From assembly GCA_902779675.1 (NCBI GenBank), contig CACZCK010000003.1:261259-325258 (forward strand): a stretch of DNA of 64,000 bases, read 5' to 3'. The notes beneath the pieces are model-generated. The model was not told the origin of the DNA, ran no database searches, and was given only the letters and a program-made list of their open reading frames with translations. Position 1 is the first letter of the stretch. The number at the start of each line of letters is the position of its first letter. Made by a program: the position numbers and the translations under genes. This stretch comes from an uncultured Coriobacteriaceae bacterium (GTDB lineage Bacteria; Actinomycetota; Coriobacteriia; Coriobacteriales; Atopobiaceae). Shown piece after piece: positions 6,691 through 18,886 of this stretch.

Positions 6691-6801
6691 GTGTGCAGAC
6701 GTCCCGCCGCGCAGAATGCGGCTCCCTTTGGGTAGACTTGACACGTTTGACTGACGATCGTGGCTGGCGCAGGTGGTGCCGGCTCGGAACAGGAGACTCT
6801 C

Positions 6802-7389
6802 ATGAGCAACGAAGGAAAGCAGGTGAGCGTCCACTACGTGGGCACGCTCGACGACGGCACCAAGTTTGACTCGTCACGCGACCGCGGCGAACCGCTGCGC
6901 TTTGTCTGCATGGCCGGACAGATGATCCCCGGCTTTGACATCGCTGTACGCGACATGGAGGTAGGCCAGACCGTGACCGTGCGCCTCGAGCCCGAGGAGG
7001 CCTACGGTCCCCGCCGCGACGACATGGTGATCTCCTTCCCCATCGCTCAGATGCCTGGTGCCGAGAACGCACGCGTTGGCATGCGCGTCATGCTCGCCGA
7101 CCCCATGGGTCGCCCAATGCCCGCCCTCGTCGCAGCCAAGGACGACCAGACCATCGCCTTCGACCTCAACCACGAGATGGCCGGCAAGGCACTGACTTTC
7201 GAGATCGAGCTGCTCGAGGCGCAGGAGGCCGAGGAGCACCACTGCTGCCACGGACGCGGCCATGGCCACGGCCGTTGCCACGAGGAGGGCGAGGGTCGCG
7301 GCGACGGCGAGTGCTGCCACGGCGAGGGTCGCGGCGACGGCGAGTGCTGCCACGGCGAGGGCGAGGGCTGCTGCTGCGAGGACGAGTAG
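6802..7389 (+). CDS. FKBP/SlyD-type peptidyl-prolyl isomerase with metal-binding tail
   Basis: A 195-residue cytoplasmic prolyl isomerase and chaperone. Residues 8-70 form the FKBP core (VHYVGTLDDGTKFDSS, MIPGFDIAVRDMEVGQ, EAYGPRRDD), with a SlyD-type insert-in-flap domain at about 76-130. From residue 144 the tail is rich in His, Cys and Gly: HHCCHGRGHGHGRCH, then two copies of an 11-residue unit ending GDGECCH and a final CCC. Such tails bind nickel or zinc in SlyD and can serve metal delivery or storage. The tail units are encoded by a 33-base tandem repeat. RBS AGGAGA precedes ATG 6802. A strong terminator follows. Confidence 0.88.
   Translation: MSNEGKQVSVHYVGTLDDGTKFDSSRDRGEPLRFVCMAGQMIPGFDIAVRDMEVGQTVTVRLEPEEAYGPRRDDMVISFPIAQMPGAENARVGMRVMLADPMGRPMPALVAAKDDQTIAFDLNHEMAGKALTFEIELLEAQEAEEHHCCHGRGHGHGRCHEEGEGRGDGECCHGEGRGDGECCHGEGEGCCCEDE
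7288..7353 (+). repeat. 33-base tandem repeat encoding the metal-binding tail
   Basis: Two exact copies, 7288-7320 and 7321-7353, each encode GEGRGDGECCH, followed by a partial third unit. Because the copies are identical at DNA level, the number of units is likely to vary among strains by slippage or recombination. Confidence 0.85.
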
Positions 7390-10968: not shown

Positions 10969-12633
10969 ATGTTCAGAAACGAAAGCGGAGGCGGCTTGCT
11001 GCGCACGCTGCTGGCGGGAGTGCTGGCCCTGGCACTCGCAGCGGCAGCACCTTGTCTAGCCAGCGCCGGCGAACCCGCAGCGCAGGCCACAGGATCGCTC
11101 ACCATCACGCAGCACCACAACGAGGGAGCGACCTATGACGCCTACCAGGTGTTTGCCGGCGACGTCGCTCCCGACGGCAGCGCCACTCATCTCACGTGGG
11201 CGTCGGACCAGACAAAGGACGCCGCACTCGCCTATTTCGACGCACAGGGATACGAGGCCTGGCTCACCGAGCGCCACCCCGGAGAGGGCCAGCACGACTT
11301 CGCTCAGAACGCTGCCGAGTACGCGTCCCATCGAATGGCAGGAGCCGAGGCAAAAGACGGGGAAGGCGCCGATCCGTCTGCCGCATCGTTCGGTCTCGGA
11401 CTCGCCAAGGCGCTCGCCGGTAGCGGCGTCGCCCCCAGCGGGGTTGCCACGGCCGGCGAACCCTTCGAAGGCGCACAGGGGCTCTGGCTCTTTGTGACCA
11501 CGGACACAACGACCGACGCTCCCTCAGAGGCAGGGACCCTTCCCCTCTGGCTTCCCCTCGGCGCCGAGAAGACGCAGGTCGACGAGAAGAGCGCTGTGCC
11601 CGCCGTATCCATCGAGGTGTGCGAGGACTCCACCGGCACATGGGGCAAGACGGCCGACGCACATCGTGCACAAGAGGTTGGCCTCCGCGTCACGGGCACG
11701 CTGCCTACCAACTTTGCCTCGTTCGAGCACTATCACTACCGCATGGACGTACATCTGCCAAAGGGCATGACGCTCTCCGTTCCCAAGGATGTCGGTCTTG
11801 CCAAGGCGCTGGTCATCAGGGTTGGCGACCACGAGGTCGTCCCCGACGGCGAGGGCTGCATCGCCTCGCTCGAGGATGGCTCGCTCGCCATCGACTTCCC
11901 AGACCTCAAGGCAGCATGCTGGCAGGATCTCGGCATAGGTGCCGACACCAAGGTCACCTGCCAATTCAAGGCGCAGCTCAACGACGCGGCGTGCATTGGC
12001 ATGCCAGGTAACGCGGTCGAGGCAAGCCTCACCTACACCGACGACCCCGTAAGCCAGCTCGACGGCCAGACGGGCATTGACACCGTGACCGTCTTCTCCC
12101 ATCAGGTGGAGCTGCTCAAGGTTGCCGACCAGACGGACAATCCGCTCGAAGGAGCCGAGTTCACCGTGCAGGTGGCTCCCCAGAACGCCGACGAGCCGTC
12201 TCGCGGACGCTATGTCGGCGCTGACGGGTCGCTTTCCGATGCTCCCCAGGCCCTCAGGACCGACGGCCAGGGAAGGCTGCGCATCGCAGGACTCGACGAG
12301 GGCGTCTACCTCATCAGCGAGACAACGGCGCCCGCAGGGTATGCCCCGCTGCCTTCCGAGGTCGGCCTCACGCTGGTCTCCACACTCTCCGACATGGATC
12401 AAGCCTTGACGGAGCTGACGGCCTCGTCGTCGCTCGAGGCAGCGCGAGTCACGAAGGTCGACCCCGACACGGCGACCGTCTCCCTGACGGTGCGCGACGC
12501 GCCGCTGTCCACGTCTTCTCAGTCGGGCGGGGCAGAACGCCTCCCCCAGACCGGCGTTGGCCCGATTGCCGGCGCACTGATCGCCCTCGGACTCGCGATT
12601 GCCGGCATTTCGCTCATGAAGGGCCGTGCCTGA
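10969..12633 (+). CDS. LPXTG pilin, SpaD/FimA type, with altered middle domain
   Basis: A 554-residue secreted, sortase-anchored pilin. Signal peptide about 1-33; D1 opens SLTITQHHNEGATYDAYQVF; the likely polymerising lysine K207 lies in DEKSAVP; D3 is a CnaB/SpaA domain (ELLKVADQ... to VSLTVRDAP); sorting signal LPQTG at 525-529, hydrophobic helix and basic end. Compared with the next gene, the middle domain has Ile215 in place of the isopeptide lysine and Val350 in place of its asparagine, and has gained Cys218, 297, 317, 331 and 342. The bond has therefore been lost and disulfides may replace it. First gene of the pilus operon; RBS AGGAGG. Confidence 0.88.
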   Translation: MFRNESGGGLLRTLLAGVLALALAAAAPCLASAGEPAAQATGSLTITQHHNEGATYDAYQVFAGDVAPDGSATHLTWASDQTKDAALAYFDAQGYEAWLTERHPGEGQHDFAQNAAEYASHRMAGAEAKDGEGADPSAASFGLGLAKALAGSGVAPSGVATAGEPFEGAQGLWLFVTTDTTTDAPSEAGTLPLWLPLGAEKTQVDEKSAVPAVSIEVCEDSTGTWGKTADAHRAQEVGLRVTGTLPTNFASFEHYHYRMDVHLPKGMTLSVPKDVGLAKALVIRVGDHEVVPDGEGCIASLEDGSLAIDFPDLKAACWQDLGIGADTKVTCQFKAQLNDAACIGMPGNAVEASLTYTDDPVSQLDGQTGIDTVTVFSHQVELLKVADQTDNPLEGAEFTVQVAPQNADEPSRGRYVGADGSLSDAPQALRTDGQGRLRIAGLDEGVYLISETTAPAGYAPLPSEVGLTLVSTLSDMDQALTELTASSSLEAARVTKVDPDTATVSLTVRDAPLSTSSQSGGAERLPQTGVGPIAGALIALGLAIAGISLMKGRA

Positions 12634-12673
12634 ACCGCGGCCAAGGCAAGAAACCACCACGAAAGGATCGTCC

Positions 12674-14371
12674 ATGAACGTCTCATGCAAGAGTTGCGCT
12701 CGCAAGGCAGTGGCAGCCGGCCTCGGCCTCGCCCTGATGGCAGGTTGTCTGCTCCCGGCACAAACCGCCTTCGCAGAGACTGCCACGCTCACCATCACCC
12801 AACAGCACAACAAGGACGCCACCTACGACGCCTATCAGCTCTTCAGGGCACGCATTTCGGCTAACGACGATGCCACCCACGTCGAGTGGGCCACAGACGA
12901 CATGAGCTCCGTCTTGCTCCCCTTCCTCGATGCGAACGGATACCAACAGTGGCTCAAGGACCACCATCCGGGCGAAGGACAGCATGACAAGGCCCAGAAC
13001 GCTGCAGAGTTCATTGCGGCAAAGATCAAGGACTCGCCCACCGACACCAAGGCAGCCACCAAGCCACGCACCACACAGGGCCGATCGTTCGCCAACGAGC
13101 TGGCTCGTCACCTCGCCGCAAAGGCGAGTCCGCACAAGCAGAAGGCAAGCTCAGGGAAGCCGTTCGAAGGCGAGCAGGGCTACTGGCTGTTCGTCACCAC
13201 CGAGGCGACGGAGGCGTCGGCCGACGACGCAGGCACCGCACCCCTGTGGGTCCCCTTGGGAGGCTCGACGACCGCCATCACGGAGAAGAGCGCCGTGCCC
13301 TCGGTCACCAAGGAAGTCAAGGAGGACTCGACGGGCGCCTGGGGCAGCGTCGCCGATGCCAATACGACACAAGACCTCTCGTATCGAATCGTGGGCAGCC
13401 TTCCCGCCAACTTCGGCACATTCGCCCAGTACCACTACCGCGTGACCGACACGCTCTCGAAGGGCCTCGACCTCAATGTGCCTAAAGGGGCCAAGCTCGC
13501 CGACCACCTTTCCGTGCGGCTCGGAGACAAGGAGGTGGTTGTCGATGGGACACACGTCCAGGCGAGCTATGACGGGCGCGTGCTTGCGATCGACTTCCCC
13601 AACCTTAAAGACGCGTACTGGAAGGACTATGCCATCGGAGCCGACACGAAGGTCACCATCGAATACCAGGCACATATGAACGCAAGCAGGACCCTGGGAG
13701 CACCGGGCAACGACAACGAGGCCTATGTCACCTACACCCGCGACCCAGTGCGTTCGGGCGACGGTCGCACGACGCCCGCCCCGCCCGTCAGGACCTTCTC
13801 CTACGGCATACAGCTCCTCAAGGTGGACGAGCAGACCAACGAGCCGCTTTCTGGCGCGACCTTCACCATGCAGGTGGCACAGGGCAACTCCGACGAGGGT
13901 TCCAAGGGCTCCTACGTCCAGCAGGACGGCTCTCTTGGAGAGGCCGAGCATCGCTTTGTCACGGGCAGCGACGGCACGTTCTCGGTCAGCGGACTCGACG
14001 AGGGCACCTACACGATCAAGGAGGTCTCGGCCCTGCCCGGATTCGACCTGATCGATGAAGACGTCACGCTGACCATCACGTCGACGCTCGACGGCAAGGC
14101 CCAGAAGCTGGAGAAGCTCACGGCGACGGCGTCGGGAGGCAATGCTGTCAAAGTGCATCCGATGGGAGCCGCCGTGACCGCCGTCGATGCCAAGGCGGGA
14201 ACCGTCCAGCTCAGCGTGACCAACGACCGACGTCTCGCGCTCCCCCTCACCGGCCAAGGCGGCCTCTCCGACGCATCTGCCCTGGGGAGTGCGGTGGCGC
14301 TCGCCGCTGGCGTCGGGCTCGTGAGGCGCCAGCACAAGGGCATCGCATCGGACATGGGCGCCCTAGCCTAG
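12674..14371 (+). CDS. LPXTG pilin, SpaD/FimA type
   Basis: A 565-residue paralogue of the preceding pilin, with the same layout: signal peptide about 1-35, D1 with ATYDAYQLF, the EKSAVP segment with candidate pilin lysine K205, D2 with isopeptide lysine K213 (VTKEV) and partner N348 (NEAYVTY), a CnaB-type D3 (LLKVDEQT... LSVTND), LPLTG at 523-527, membrane helix and short tail. The mature chain has no cysteine, as usual for isopeptide-stabilised pilins. Class C sortases join such subunits through the pilin lysine. ATG 12674 follows GAAAGGA; 40-base gap from the first pilin gene. Confidence 0.88.
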   Translation: MNVSCKSCARKAVAAGLGLALMAGCLLPAQTAFAETATLTITQQHNKDATYDAYQLFRARISANDDATHVEWATDDMSSVLLPFLDANGYQQWLKDHHPGEGQHDKAQNAAEFIAAKIKDSPTDTKAATKPRTTQGRSFANELARHLAAKASPHKQKASSGKPFEGEQGYWLFVTTEATEASADDAGTAPLWVPLGGSTTAITEKSAVPSVTKEVKEDSTGAWGSVADANTTQDLSYRIVGSLPANFGTFAQYHYRVTDTLSKGLDLNVPKGAKLADHLSVRLGDKEVVVDGTHVQASYDGRVLAIDFPNLKDAYWKDYAIGADTKVTIEYQAHMNASRTLGAPGNDNEAYVTYTRDPVRSGDGRTTPAPPVRTFSYGIQLLKVDEQTNEPLSGATFTMQVAQGNSDEGSKGSYVQQDGSLGEAEHRFVTGSDGTFSVSGLDEGTYTIKEVSALPGFDLIDEDVTLTITSTLDGKAQKLEKLTATASGGNAVKVHPMGAAVTAVDAKAGTVQLSVTNDRRLALPLTGQGGLSDASALGSAVALAAGVGLVRRQHKGIASDMGALA

Positions 14372-14384
14372 GAAGGAGGAGGAC

Positions 14385-17138
14385 ATGAGGCAGAGCGAAC
14401 GACATCACATGCACGCACCGCGGGGACGCCTGACACGGATCCTGCTGGCCATCATGGCGGCGCTCCTGGTCGGACTCGCGCGTCCCACGCGGGCACAGGC
14501 GGCCGTAACGCTCACCAAGGACGGGCTCGAAAGCGCCGACAGGGCGACCTGTGTCATCGACGTCGACTCGTACCAGGACTTCACGTTCGAGGCGAGCGAG
14601 GGCTCCCCCTTCCGCCTCGACACGCGAGACGGCGTCTTCAAGGAGTACGTCGGCGGAACCGAGCACGTTATCTACGGCGTGTATGTCGACTACACCCCTC
14701 AGGCAGGCGTCACCACACTGCCCGGATACTTTGAGATCACCTATCCGAAGGGGCTGCTCGACGCCGACGGCAACCGCCACGACCTGCACGTGAGGTTCTC
14801 GAACGTCATCTACAAGTGGGCCAGGTCACCCCAGACCGGTCCGGTGGCGCAGCAGCTGATCGGGGCCACTGACGACGGCCTTCGCATCATGGCCGAATGC
14901 AGCTCGATGCTCAGGGACTCCGAGGTGGTGCCGTACGACCCATGGTCCACAGGCACGGTCAACCCGTTCGGCGTCTCGTGCGACATCCGCATGTGGTGCG
15001 ACGACGACGCGACGCTCCTGTACAACGTGTACGCCCGCGACATCGACCAGCCAGACCGCTTCACGGGCCGCACGGCAGCCACCTGCTCCTACGAGGGTGA
15101 GTGGTCTGAGTCCCTCGAGCCGCTCGGCACCTTCGAGAGCTTCCACGTCCACAAGGACAGCTGGCTCAGGAGCGACGGCATACGCATACGCGGCACCAAG
15201 TCGGACGACGACGAGGCGCTCAACCGCTCGGGCTTCGTCGGGCTCGGCACCATGAGCGCCGCGACTCCGCTCGGGTTCGTCTGGAGGGGATCGATGTGCT
15301 CCTCCCACATCCTCCAGGATTGGAGACACACCCTCAAGACGCGCGTCGTCGACGGCGTCGGAGGAACCATCGACACCAAGGCCGGCAGCGAGTCGCAGCG
15401 CACCATCAAGAGCAACGCCGCCGATACCTGGGACAACACCAACACCGTGCCCAAGAACAACTATGTGGTCACGGCCACCCCGGCCAAGGGCTACCGTATC
15501 GCCGAGATGTGGCTTGACGACAAGAGGCTCTCCGACAAGGAGGCTTCCGCCGGCGCCGTGAGCATCCCCTCCGTGACGGCCGACCATACCGTGGCCGTCA
15601 GGTTCGAGCCCCTCGGCACCGCGCTCTCCCTCGTCAAGGCCTCGGCCGCTCCGGCCATCACCGACGGCAACCCCTGCTACTCGCTCAAGGGCGCCGAATA
15701 CGGCGTCTACTCCGACAAGGAGTGCACGATGGCGGTGGGCTCCCTCGTGACCTCGGCAAATGGGACGAGCAACAGTCTCACCCTCCCCGCAGGAAGCTAT
15801 TACGTGAAGGAGATCAAGCCATCTGCGGGCTATGCGCTCGACCCCACCGTGCACGAGGCGAAGGTCGGCGAGACGGGAGGAACCGTGCTCGACGTGACGG
15901 AACGACCCCAGACCAACCCCCTCTCGCTGCTAGCGCTCAAGGTCGACGCTCAGACCAAGAAGGCGCAGCCGCAAGGCGCGGCCTCACTCGCCGAGGCCCA
16001 GTTCACGGTGTGCTACTACAACGCGCTCCTCACAAGCGACAAACTGCCCAAGGACCCCACACGTACGTGGGTGCTCAAGACCGACAACCAGGGCAGGGCG
16101 AGCCTCGACGAGGCACACAAGGTCTCTGGCGACCCGTTCTTTCAGATGGATGGCACCACTGTCGTGCCCCTGGGGACGCTCACCATAGAGGAGACCAAGG
16201 CGCCGAAGGGTTACATGCTCCCCAAGGACAGTCTGACGCTCTACCAGATAACCCCGAAGGGAACAAAGGCGACACTCTCTCAGATTCTCGAGCCCAGCGA
16301 AGCGAACCCGACCGTCTTGGAGCAAGTCGCCCGGGGCGGCATCAAGGTGAAGAAGGTCGACGCGGCAGGCAAGCCGCTCGCAGGTGCGACCTTCTCCGTT
16401 ACAACAACCTCGGACCATCCCGTGGTCGTCGGCGGCAAGTCCTTTGACAAGGGTGCGGTCTGCGCAACGATGACCTCAGACGAGAACGGCATCGCATCAA
16501 CCAGTGCCGACTCACTTCCCTACGGAACCTATCGCATCACCGAGACCAAGGCGCCGAAGGGGTACCAGGCCAACGAGAAGTGGGCCGCAGACGTGACCAT
16601 AGGCGAGAACGCATACGTCGCCGATCTCACCAAGCAGCCTGTCGTCAACGAACCCATCTCCGTCAGCGTGCCCGTCACGGCCACCAAGCGTCTCGAGGGC
16701 ACCCTTCCCGGTCAGGGACTCAAGGCCGACGCGTACTCGTTTACGCTCTCGGCAGAGGATGGCACGGTTCTACAGACCAAGCGCAACGACGCCAAGGGTT
16801 CAATACGGTTCGACGCCCTCTCCTTCACCCACGACGACCTCGGCAAGAAGCATGTCTACCTCATCCGAGAGGTGGCGGGCGACGATGACGGCATCGTCTA
16901 CGACGGCCATGTCGAGCGGTTCGAGATCGCCCTGGAGGAGCAGGGGGACGGCAGCCTCAAGGCGGAGGTAAAGGCCGACCGTGACGGCCTGGTGTTCGTC
17001 AACGAGGTGTTGGCCCCCATCGCCCTGCCCGTAACGGGTCGCGGGGGGATCTTCGGCGCATGGGCAGCCGCGGCGGCGTCTGGCATTGCTATCGGCATCT
17101 ACCTGCGACGCCGCACCATCAGGAGCCGTCGGCCGTGA
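14385..17138 (+). CDS. Large LPXTG adhesin, probable pilus tip protein
   Basis: A 917-residue secreted surface protein. Signal peptide about 1-40; residues about 41-400 form a large N-terminal region with several cysteines and no recognised domain, likely the binding head. Then come CnaB/SpaA-type domains (LSLVKASAAP..., LLALKVDAQT..., IKVKKVDAAGKPLAGATFSV...) with repeated EETKAPKGY/ETKAPKGY motifs, and an FctA/Spy0128-like domain (VTATKRLEGTLPGQGLKADAYSFTL). It ends LPVTG, a hydrophobic helix and a basic tail. RBS GGAGGAGG. The stop overlaps the GTG of the sortase gene. Large CnaB-rich proteins beside pilins are usually tip adhesins. Confidence 0.85.
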   Translation: MRQSERHHMHAPRGRLTRILLAIMAALLVGLARPTRAQAAVTLTKDGLESADRATCVIDVDSYQDFTFEASEGSPFRLDTRDGVFKEYVGGTEHVIYGVYVDYTPQAGVTTLPGYFEITYPKGLLDADGNRHDLHVRFSNVIYKWARSPQTGPVAQQLIGATDDGLRIMAECSSMLRDSEVVPYDPWSTGTVNPFGVSCDIRMWCDDDATLLYNVYARDIDQPDRFTGRTAATCSYEGEWSESLEPLGTFESFHVHKDSWLRSDGIRIRGTKSDDDEALNRSGFVGLGTMSAATPLGFVWRGSMCSSHILQDWRHTLKTRVVDGVGGTIDTKAGSESQRTIKSNAADTWDNTNTVPKNNYVVTATPAKGYRIAEMWLDDKRLSDKEASAGAVSIPSVTADHTVAVRFEPLGTALSLVKASAAPAITDGNPCYSLKGAEYGVYSDKECTMAVGSLVTSANGTSNSLTLPAGSYYVKEIKPSAGYALDPTVHEAKVGETGGTVLDVTERPQTNPLSLLALKVDAQTKKAQPQGAASLAEAQFTVCYYNALLTSDKLPKDPTRTWVLKTDNQGRASLDEAHKVSGDPFFQMDGTTVVPLGTLTIEETKAPKGYMLPKDSLTLYQITPKGTKATLSQILEPSEANPTVLEQVARGGIKVKKVDAAGKPLAGATFSVTTTSDHPVVVGGKSFDKGAVCATMTSDENGIASTSADSLPYGTYRITETKAPKGYQANEKWAADVTIGENAYVADLTKQPVVNEPISVSVPVTATKRLEGTLPGQGLKADAYSFTLSAEDGTVLQTKRNDAKGSIRFDALSFTHDDLGKKHVYLIREVAGDDDGIVYDGHVERFEIALEEQGDGSLKAEVKADRDGLVFVNEVLAPIALPVTGRGGIFGAWAAAAASGIAIGIYLRRRTIRSRRP

Positions 17139-18886
17139 GGCCGGCACGACGCCGGCAGCGCCGGCAGGGCATCCCCGCAGCCTCCCGCCTGATAGACGCC
17201 TCGCTCGTCGCGGTCGCGCTCATCGCGGGAATCCTGTCCGCTCACCCCCTGGTCGAGGACCTGAGGAGCACCGTACACACCGACCGTGAGATATCCACGC
17301 TCTCGGCCACCATCGACGAGACCGACGACGAGGAGCGGCTGGACCTCTTGGGCCAGGCGCAGGCCTACAATGCCCGTCTCGGCGGCGAGGGCTATCGGCA
17401 GGACAATGGCGGCCTCAATGGATGCAACGGCGGAACCGGTGACGTCATCGAGGCGGACGCCCCAGAAGACGGAGAGCTGGCGCCCTACGAGCGCCAGCTC
17501 TCCCGGGGCGGCCACGAGGCGATGGGGTGGATCGAGCTGCCCTCCGTCGGCATCAGGCAACCTCTGCGACATGGGACGTCCGATGAGGTGCTTGCGGCAG
17601 GTGCGGGGCACCTGGAATGGTCGTCCCTGCCCGTGGGCGGCGTTCCCAGCCACTGCGTCGTCGCCGGGCACTCGGGCATGACGGCCACGCGCATGTTCGA
17701 CGACCTCGACGAGGTATCCGTCGGTGACACCGTCGTCCTGCACGTGCTCGGTGACGCCTACCAATACGAGGTCTACGGCATCGAGGTGGTCGAGCCCGAT
17801 GAGGTGCAGGACCGATGCGCCATCAGGCCCGGGGAGGACCTCTGCACGCTGATGACCTGCACGCCCTATGGCATCAACTCGCACAGGCTCCTGGTCCATG
17901 CGCGCAGATGTCCCTACGAGCCCTCTGACGAGCCCAAGGCCAGGATCATGGTGTCAAGAAGGCCCAGCAGGCGCGTGGCACCGCTCCTTTTGCTGGCTGG
18001 GACGCTTGGACTCGCAGGCGTCGTGCGATTGGTGCGCGCGCTCGTGCGGGCGAGACGTCGCCGGATCGCGCGGGGCGCGGCGCAAGCCGTTGGGGCGGCG
18101 ACGCGCCGACGCGGGACAAGGGCCCTTCGCATCACATCCGGCCTGCTCGTGGGACTTGTGCTCGTCGCGATGGGAGGGTCGGTCCTGGTGCGCCAAGGAC
18201 AGGAACGGCATGCCTTGGCGCAGCTTGCGTCCGACGTGACGGAACCACGGACGTCCACCCCAGACGGCACGGCCTCCCATGGCGGCATTCGCTGGGACGC
18301 CCTCCGCTCCGCGAACGAGGACGTCGCCGCGTGGGTTCGTGTCGAGGGCACCGACATCGACCTGCCCGTCGTCGCGCCGTCCGACGGCGACATGGCCTTC
18401 TATCTCACGCATGACCTCTGGCGCAAGCCTGCGATGGGAGGAGTCCCCTTCCTCGACCACCGTTGCGACGCCAACGGCGCGCACCGCATGGCCTTTGGCC
18501 ACCACCTGACCACGGGAGGGCAGTTCAGCAGCCTCCAGCACGCATCCGATCAGGCCTGTTTTGACACTCTGGGCGACTGCATCTGGCAGACTCCCGAGCA
18601 TGGCGCCTCCAGGCTCGTCCCCTTCTGCGCCTTCGAGGCCGACATGTGGTTCGAGCCCATACAGACCTTCGCGTTTGCCGACCAAGATGCGTTTCGAGTT
18701 TGGCTCGACACCGTCGCAAGCGACGCCTCGGCACATGCCGCCGCCTGGAAGGACCTTGCAGCCGAAGCCCAATCGGCCGTGACGCTGGTCACCTGCTCCT
18801 CGGACTTCCCGCGGCAGCGCTGGCGAACCTTCGTGGTATTCGTCGAGACAAGAGAGGAGACGATCGTGCAGGACACGACACCCTAG
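17135..18886 (+). CDS. Fusion of class C sortase and class B sortase
   Basis: One uninterrupted 583-residue frame. Residues about 18-38 form a first membrane helix; 125-258 are a class C (pilus-polymerising) sortase core with GTSDEVL, GGVPSHCVVAGHSG (His179), and LMTCTPYGINSHRLLVHAR (Cys242, Arg251). Helix two (281-304), a very basic loop (305-332) and helix three (333-352) follow. Residues 385-572 are a class B sortase core: DIDLPVV, GVPFLDHR, MAFGHHLTTGGQFSSL (His456), LVTCSSDFPRQRWRTFVVF (Cys554, Arg560/562). Both triads look complete and both cores would face outside. Translation starts at GTG 17135, overlapping the adhesin stop. The class C part lacks a clear DPF/DPW lid motif. Confidence 0.88.
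   Translation: MRPARRRQRRQGIPAASRLIDASLVAVALIAGILSAHPLVEDLRSTVHTDREISTLSATIDETDDEERLDLLGQAQAYNARLGGEGYRQDNGGLNGCNGGTGDVIEADAPEDGELAPYERQLSRGGHEAMGWIELPSVGIRQPLRHGTSDEVLAAGAGHLEWSSLPVGGVPSHCVVAGHSGMTATRMFDDLDEVSVGDTVVLHVLGDAYQYEVYGIEVVEPDEVQDRCAIRPGEDLCTLMTCTPYGINSHRLLVHARRCPYEPSDEPKARIMVSRRPSRRVAPLLLLAGTLGLAGVVRLVRALVRARRRRIARGAAQAVGAATRRRGTRALRITSGLLVGLVLVAMGGSVLVRQGQERHALAQLASDVTEPRTSTPDGTASHGGIRWDALRSANEDVAAWVRVEGTDIDLPVVAPSDGDMAFYLTHDLWRKPAMGGVPFLDHRCDANGAHRMAFGHHLTTGGQFSSLQHASDQACFDTLGDCIWQTPEHGASRLVPFCAFEADMWFEPIQTFAFADQDAFRVWLDTVASDASAHAAAWKDLAAEAQSAVTLVTCSSDFPRQRWRTFVVFVETREETIVQDTTP

Follow-up and report, generated by a model that had tools for sequence, protein, structure and literature searches.

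Sortase-pilus locus with two three-domain pilins

The window, a stretch of 64,000 nucleotides, contains a sortase-pilus locus of ordinary type, in which two of the pilins, P0001 and P0002, are homologous and have three domains each. Its genes, with coordinates in the window, are:

10969..12633, +: P0001, a sortase-assembled pilin of 554 aa, probably ancillary, with a signal peptide, domains D1, D2 and D3, and LPQTG
12674..14371, +: P0002, a canonical pilin with an intact D2 triad, LPLTG and no mature cysteine; the probable shaft
14385..17138, +: P0003, 917 aa, SpaA and FctA (Spy0128-like) domains, LPVTG; a probable tip or adhesin
17060..18886, +: P0004, a single open reading frame (ORF) comprising a class C sortase and a class B-like sortase

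The class C sortase in P0004 is matched by NF033745 with 194.5 bits (cut-off 160). The fusion holds TLMTC and TLVTC motifs within one ORF. Motifs of this type are found in separate ORFs in the congeners G013, G005 and G008, and two in one ORF in G011. A further ORF of the window (6760-7389) encodes an FKBP-type protein, SlyD-like by eye, with a long His/Cys-rich tail of near-repeats (GEGRGDGECCH) that perhaps binds metal. The genus relatives that carry names are uncultured Coriobacteriaceae/Atopobiaceae MAGs, one of them from water deer ileum.

Two features of P0001 relate to its assembly into a pilus:

11587..11589, +: Lys207, the predicted pilin-motif (polymerisation) lysine in E-K-S-A-V-P, invariant in 118/118 aligned rows
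12541..12555, +: LPQTG sorting motif near the C-terminus

Lys207 is the likely polymerisation lysine. Since this residue and the sorting signal are both retained, P0001 should still be incorporable into the pilus. The sorting signal reads LPQTG in P0001 and LAQTG in five first-type pilins of congeners. Judged by this signal type, by homology and by how it differs from P0002, the LPLTG pilin without mature cysteines that is the probable shaft, P0001 probably serves as an ancillary pilin at the base or a junction and does not form the shaft. A comparable arrangement exists in Streptococcus sanguinis, where PilA (8wxd, shaft) and PilB (8wgg, titled basal) form a homologous pilin pair, one of which is called basal. 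The preliminary description had assigned the altered D2 domain of P0001 to a pilus shaft. It is indeed a pilin domain, while the shaft assignment is doubtful, since the likely shaft is P0002 and P0001 is probably ancillary.

The AF2 model of P0001 (residues 41-530, 118 homologues) has a mean pLDDT of 94.1 and a pTM of 0.88. PilA and PilB of S. sanguinis are its best solved matches in VIA-align (PilA: Z 29.4 over 408 residues, 3.4 Å; PilB: Z 28.9), and P0001 matches their D1-D2-D3 architecture over the full length. Another three-domain pilin, FimP of Actinomyces oris (3uxf), consists of N, M and C domains and is described as having a Lys-Asp isopeptide in its C domain, like the one predicted for D3 of P0001.

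The possibility that P0001 is a pseudogene is rejected. Its reading frame is intact, its GC3 is normal (0.76-0.82), and the end branch of D2 (0.73) lies between those of D1 (0.61) and D3 (0.88), so that there is no decay specific to D2. In per-domain FastTree trees, D2 of P0001 groups beside the D2 of P0002-type pilins, and D1 and D3 group beside first-type pilins. This hints at a domain exchange between the tandem genes (10969-14371). A mosaic with D2 from a P0002-type gene and D1/D3 from first-type genes was dropped, as careful trees and AU tests (p 0.16-0.51) gave no decision on it.

Isopeptide triad and cysteines of D2

In CnaA-type M-domains, a Lys-Asn bond is formed under catalysis by an Asp. 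The triads reported are Lys190/Asn319/Asp230 for FimP (PMC3485203) and K186/N337/D242 for SpaD of Lactobacillus rhamnosus GG (LGG; PMC6123636). In P0001, all three positions of the D2 triad are replaced, as seen both in the P0001/P0002 alignment and in the family rows, and the D3 triad is kept:

11590..12096, +: D2 of P0001, residues ~208-376; CnaA-like, without the isopeptide triad, holds all five mature cysteines
11611..11613, +: Ile215, replaces the D2 isopeptide Lys
11749..11751, +: Val261, replaces the D2 catalytic Asp
12016..12018, +: Val350, replaces the D2 isopeptide Asn
12118..12498, +: D3 isopeptide triad Lys384, Glu451, Asp510, kept in sequence; Lys-Asp type as in FimP

In the pairwise alignment, S-I215-E-V stands opposite T-K-E-V of P0002, and A-V350-E-A opposite D-N-E-A. 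The loss of both ends of the D2 cross-link, noted in the preliminary description, is thus confirmed. The third loss, which had been overlooked, makes it complete: the Asp in TDTL of P0002 corresponds to Val261 (MDVHL) in P0001. In alignments with the S. sanguinis entries 8wxd and 8wg6, both PilA and PilB keep the D2 Lys and Asn that P0001 lacks.

Profile searches agree with this picture. TIGR04226 (isopeptide D2) matches P0002 with 61.4 bits (cut-off 30) and gives no match to P0001 at E<=0.1, while PF16569 falls just below its cut-off for P0001 (29.5 bits, cut-off 30.5). An alternative isopeptide in D2 was rejected: it would lack a Lys on strand A and an Asn at position 350, and Asp260 is one residue out of register and has no Lys/Asn partner. 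At the sequence level the loss is clear: because Lys, Asp and Asn are all replaced, the usual D2 isopeptide is impossible in P0001. In D3, the CnaB-type residues are present and PF17802 (SpaA) matches with 40.9 bits, so the Lys-Asp isopeptide of this domain is predicted to be retained.

The cysteines of P0001 are residues 29, in the signal peptide, and 218, 297, 317, 331 and 342 in the mature protein. All three cysteines of P0002 (5, 8 and 25) lie within its signal peptide. A residue count therefore bears out the earlier observation of five mature cysteines in P0001 against none in P0002. In addition, P0003 contains 10 cysteines. D2 accounts for ~36% of the combined length of the three domains and holds all five mature cysteines of P0001; D1 and D3 are free of them:

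11620..11622, +: Cys218, end of strand A, predicted to face outward
11857..11859, +: Cys297, immediately before a strand, in the column of a recurrent Cys in relatives
11917..11919, +: Cys317, in a short helix; shared with the second pilin of G008 (L027_3803)
11959..11961, +: Cys331, at a core position where most relatives have Val
11992..11994, +: Cys342, in the loop preceding the Val350 strand; relatives have Cys at 341

DSSP places Ile215 and Cys218 in the first strand (213-219), Cys317 in a short helix (316-321) and Cys331 in a strand (328-337). Cys342 falls into the loop that comes next, and Val350 belongs to the strand 348-357. All 180 filled rows have a hydrophobic residue in column 331, mostly Val, and Cys331 is therefore regarded as a core residue. 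Cys218 most likely faces outward, since its column is mostly polar and it lies three residues from position 215.

Triad loss and cysteine distribution in the family

Relatives of P0001 were found in 69/140 genomes of the family search and in 133/396 genomes of a class sample. The order sample gave 349/395 genomes with a more sensitive profile that also catches single domains. A search for related loci with P0001 alone returned no match, and the same search with the alignment A2 returned 9 loci, at least 5 of them from congeners already in the sample. We used 185 homologous rows of >60 bits, originating from 121 loci. Of these rows, 178 are usable: their triad columns are filled and their D2 spans 140 aa or more.

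Of the 185 rows, 169 have the triad KDN. The D2 Lys is lost in 6/178 usable rows, which requires five changes on the tree. At the Lys, Asp and Asn sites, these rows carry I,V,V (P0001), F,V,T (G375), F,F,T (G450), Q,V,S (G088), L,G,N (G009) and M,A,N (G387), so that four of the six have all three residues replaced. K-D-N is retained in the remaining five first-type pilins of this genus; the loss in P0001 is hence lineage-specific. The buried Lys is replaced by a hydrophobic residue in five of the six rows, P0001 included, a pattern that suggests a repacked core. With respect to the sorting signal, Lys loss occurs in 0/48 rows with LP[LVI]TG and in 6/126 others, a small split. Literature searches for a published case gave, within their scope, no report of a pilin from Coriobacteriia that lacks its D2 triad; one on S. 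sanguinis returned mostly type IV pili, a different system.

The six Lys-less rows hold 0, 2, 2, 2, 5 and 5 cysteines in D2. In the 172 Lys-keeping rows, D2 has no cysteine in 84, one in 45, two in 14, three in 24 and four in 5. Counts are higher in the Lys-less rows (raw Mann-Whitney p 0.008). An earlier set of 135 rows, five of them Lys-less, gave a raw p of 0.0014, and 0.012 when compared with the 71 Lys-keeping rows without LP[LVIS]TG. In a comparison of phylogenetically independent pairs (cut-off of at least two D2 cysteines), 3.1/5 go in the same direction and 0 in the opposite one, with too few pairs for significance to be reachable. The cysteine-rich Lys-less rows thus give hints of a link between triad loss and cysteine gain. 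Five D2 cysteines occur only in P0001 and in the pilin of G088 (L090_3578), both triad-less. The latter (L090 3578-4771, -) is a second case like P0001: it lacks D1 and has five cysteines in D2 and 14 in the open frame.

While cysteines are enriched where the triad is lost, a similar pair is also found where the triad is intact. Cysteines at both 295-298 and 340-343, the segments of Cys297 and Cys342, are present in 27/185 rows including P0001. The triad is intact in all of these rows except P0001. Cysteines at these two sites are strongly associated (Fisher p ~2e-22, without correction for kinship), and the pair requires three changes on the tree. The pair-bearing pilins are first-type pilins of Collinsella/Olsenella-like genomes with cysteines at ~297 and 341 (for example L061 5022-6770, -, and L156 2606-4360, +), and they adjoin a second, canonical pilin. 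They share the cysteine pair with P0001 and differ from it in their intact isopeptide triad (26/26). The equivalence is approximate, as Cys342 lies one column from Cys341 of the relatives, and a first alignment placed their other partner cysteine at 293+1 and not at 297.

Published work agrees with such a coexistence. In a survey of actinobacterial isopeptide domains, disulfides are stated to co-occur with isopeptides in 41.3% (PMC12617251). FimP is reported to contain both in one protein (PMC3485203), and in a Mobiluncus adhesin a disulfide is described as adjoining an isopeptide within one domain. According to the FimP report, the disulfides are located in the N and C domains, and the M-domain, with its Lys190-Asn319 bond and Asp230, has none. 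As 26 relatives hold both the pair and the triad, the pair of P0001 most resembles a disulfide-type pair that in other pilins occurs alongside the isopeptide triad. Cys297-Cys342 is the best-precedented pair and a candidate disulfide if the cell can oxidise it.

D2 domains with exactly two cysteines have them at 214/297, 296/316, 297/341, 317/341, 304/327, 283/335 and other positions, most seen once. The 317/341 combination occurs in the second pilin of G008, with an intact triad. These pairs suggest a single pole of D2 at which strand A ends and the segments 297, 316-317 and 341-342 lie; Cys218, Cys297, Cys317 and Cys342 are probably located there. Two disulfides at this pole, for example Cys218-Cys297 and Cys317-Cys342, are possible. 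More generally, disulfides in D2 of P0001 are plausible from the position of these four cysteines in or near segments that hold cysteine pairs elsewhere. Among the homologous rows, the full set of five cysteine positions is found in P0001 alone, and few rows have a cysteine even at 316-318.

Oxidative folding, rival readings and the role of P0001

Pilus assembly in A. oris is reported to require MdbA and VKOR (PMC5478893). VKOR (PF07884) and Thioredoxin_4 (PF13462) have no match in any of 18 genus genomes, including the 99.67% complete genome of this organism, which also has no match to DSBA. Among 24 chosen genomes (pair-bearing, triad-less, own and G008), VKOR is absent from all, those with the ~297/341 pair in this set included. 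Thioredoxin_4 (DsbA-like) has a match in one, G450, and the pilin of that genome lacks cysteines in D2. For the thiol-oxidase gene that the preliminary description suggested looking for, VKOR, Thioredoxin_4 and DSBA thus give no match in the genome. The genome does encode an exported TlpA-like protein with WCPYC, beside a CcdA homologue (contig C1 of the genome, about 74.8-75.1 kb). In S. gordonii, thioredoxin-like and CcdA proteins are reported to serve MsrAB reduction, and the oxidase SdbA is described as a further redox partner of one such pair (PMC7034828). Judging from gene content, disulfide formation in the host of P0001 by oxidases other than the MdbA/VKOR type is possible.

It was proposed that the D2 isopeptide of P0001 has been exchanged for disulfides, with Cys218-Cys342, possibly together with Cys297 and Cys317, tying the parts formerly joined by Lys215-Asn350. 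Part of this proposal stands: the bond is lost, its ends and catalyst having disappeared together, and triad-less D2 domains are rich in cysteines. The precedents at 214/297, 296/316, 297/341, 317/341 and 304/327 appear to fit a single pole, and the TlpA-like protein next to CcdA may be counted in favour. The swap itself fares less well. Twenty-six relatives combine a pair at the same segments with the full triad, and the pilin of G450 (L213 1828-4293, +) has neither triad nor D2 cysteines. Odd cysteine counts are common in the family. Cys218, three residues from position 215, would lie on the opposite strand face, in a mostly polar column. In addition, the test on independent pairs is not significant, and the usual oxidase families are unmatched. 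As a proven swap, the exchange is rejected for now because of the cysteine-count, G450 and cysteine-pair evidence. It is a possible reading, another one being better, and we consider it doubtful; a form of it in which evolution put two disulfides at a single pole of D2 in the place of the Lys-Asn bond is unlikely. Since a pole with two disulfides is possible, the exchange is kept as a rival. If true, the exchange would mean that a mechanical lock which cannot be reversed has become sensitive to redox state, in a host for which the searches gave no MdbA/VKOR system.

It is also conceivable, though improbable, that the bond is no longer needed and that the triad and cysteine changes are functionless drift, with free thiols tolerated by an anaerobe. 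Exactly one D2 cysteine is present in 45 of the Lys-keeping rows, there is no excess of even cysteine counts over D1-D3 (59 odd and 32 even non-zero counts in 135 rows), and no standard oxidase was found in the genomes searched. Against drift, all five cysteines are confined to D2, Cys297 and Cys342 match the recurrent pair site, and D2 has diverged no more than D3. Very improbable is a metal-binding cluster or an inter-subunit disulfide with a Cys-bearing pilus protein such as P0003, for which the probable location of four cysteines at one pole and the 10 cysteines of P0003 may speak, while no metal motif is recognised by eye and the five positions do not recur together in the homologue set.

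The reading that we favour as a whole, and consider moderately probable, is an ancillary pilin with a lost and repacked D2 triad, in which the cysteines are a separate feature. P0001 would take an ancillary place, probably at the base or a junction, in a sortase-assembled pilus built from three pilins. The lineage-specific loss of the D2 Lys-Asp-Asn triad would have been accompanied by repacking of the core with Ile, Val and Val, and D2 would fold without an isopeptide bond, its fold being retained in the predicted model. A related case is the D242A mutant of the LGG SpaD M-domain (5z0z), which is reported to lack the isopeptide and to have an unchanged structure (PMC6123636). Like D2 of P0001, it is a CnaA M-domain without the bond; unlike it, it is a laboratory mutant with Lys and Asn present and no gain of cysteines. 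By analogy, D2 of an ancillary pilin can probably dispense with its isopeptide bond.

In this favoured reading, polymerisation through Lys207 and LPQTG, as well as the D3 Lys-Asp isopeptide, would be retained. The D2 cysteines would be a separate, partly convergent feature. Given oxidation by the cell, one loop-to-loop disulfide between Cys297 and Cys342 would staple one pole of D2. Cys218 and Cys317 may pair at the same pole, or the cysteines may remain free, and Cys331 may stay free in the core.

Cysteines close to a lost isopeptide should not be taken for a replacement before the relatives are checked, because a similar pair coexists with an intact triad. The D2 isopeptide is near-universal in this pilin family, yet it was lost about five times outside the LP[LVI]TG class, and each loss of the Lys came with further loss in the triad and not alone. 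These repeated losses are natural experiments on shaft versus ancillary position, and on mechanical load versus protease resistance.
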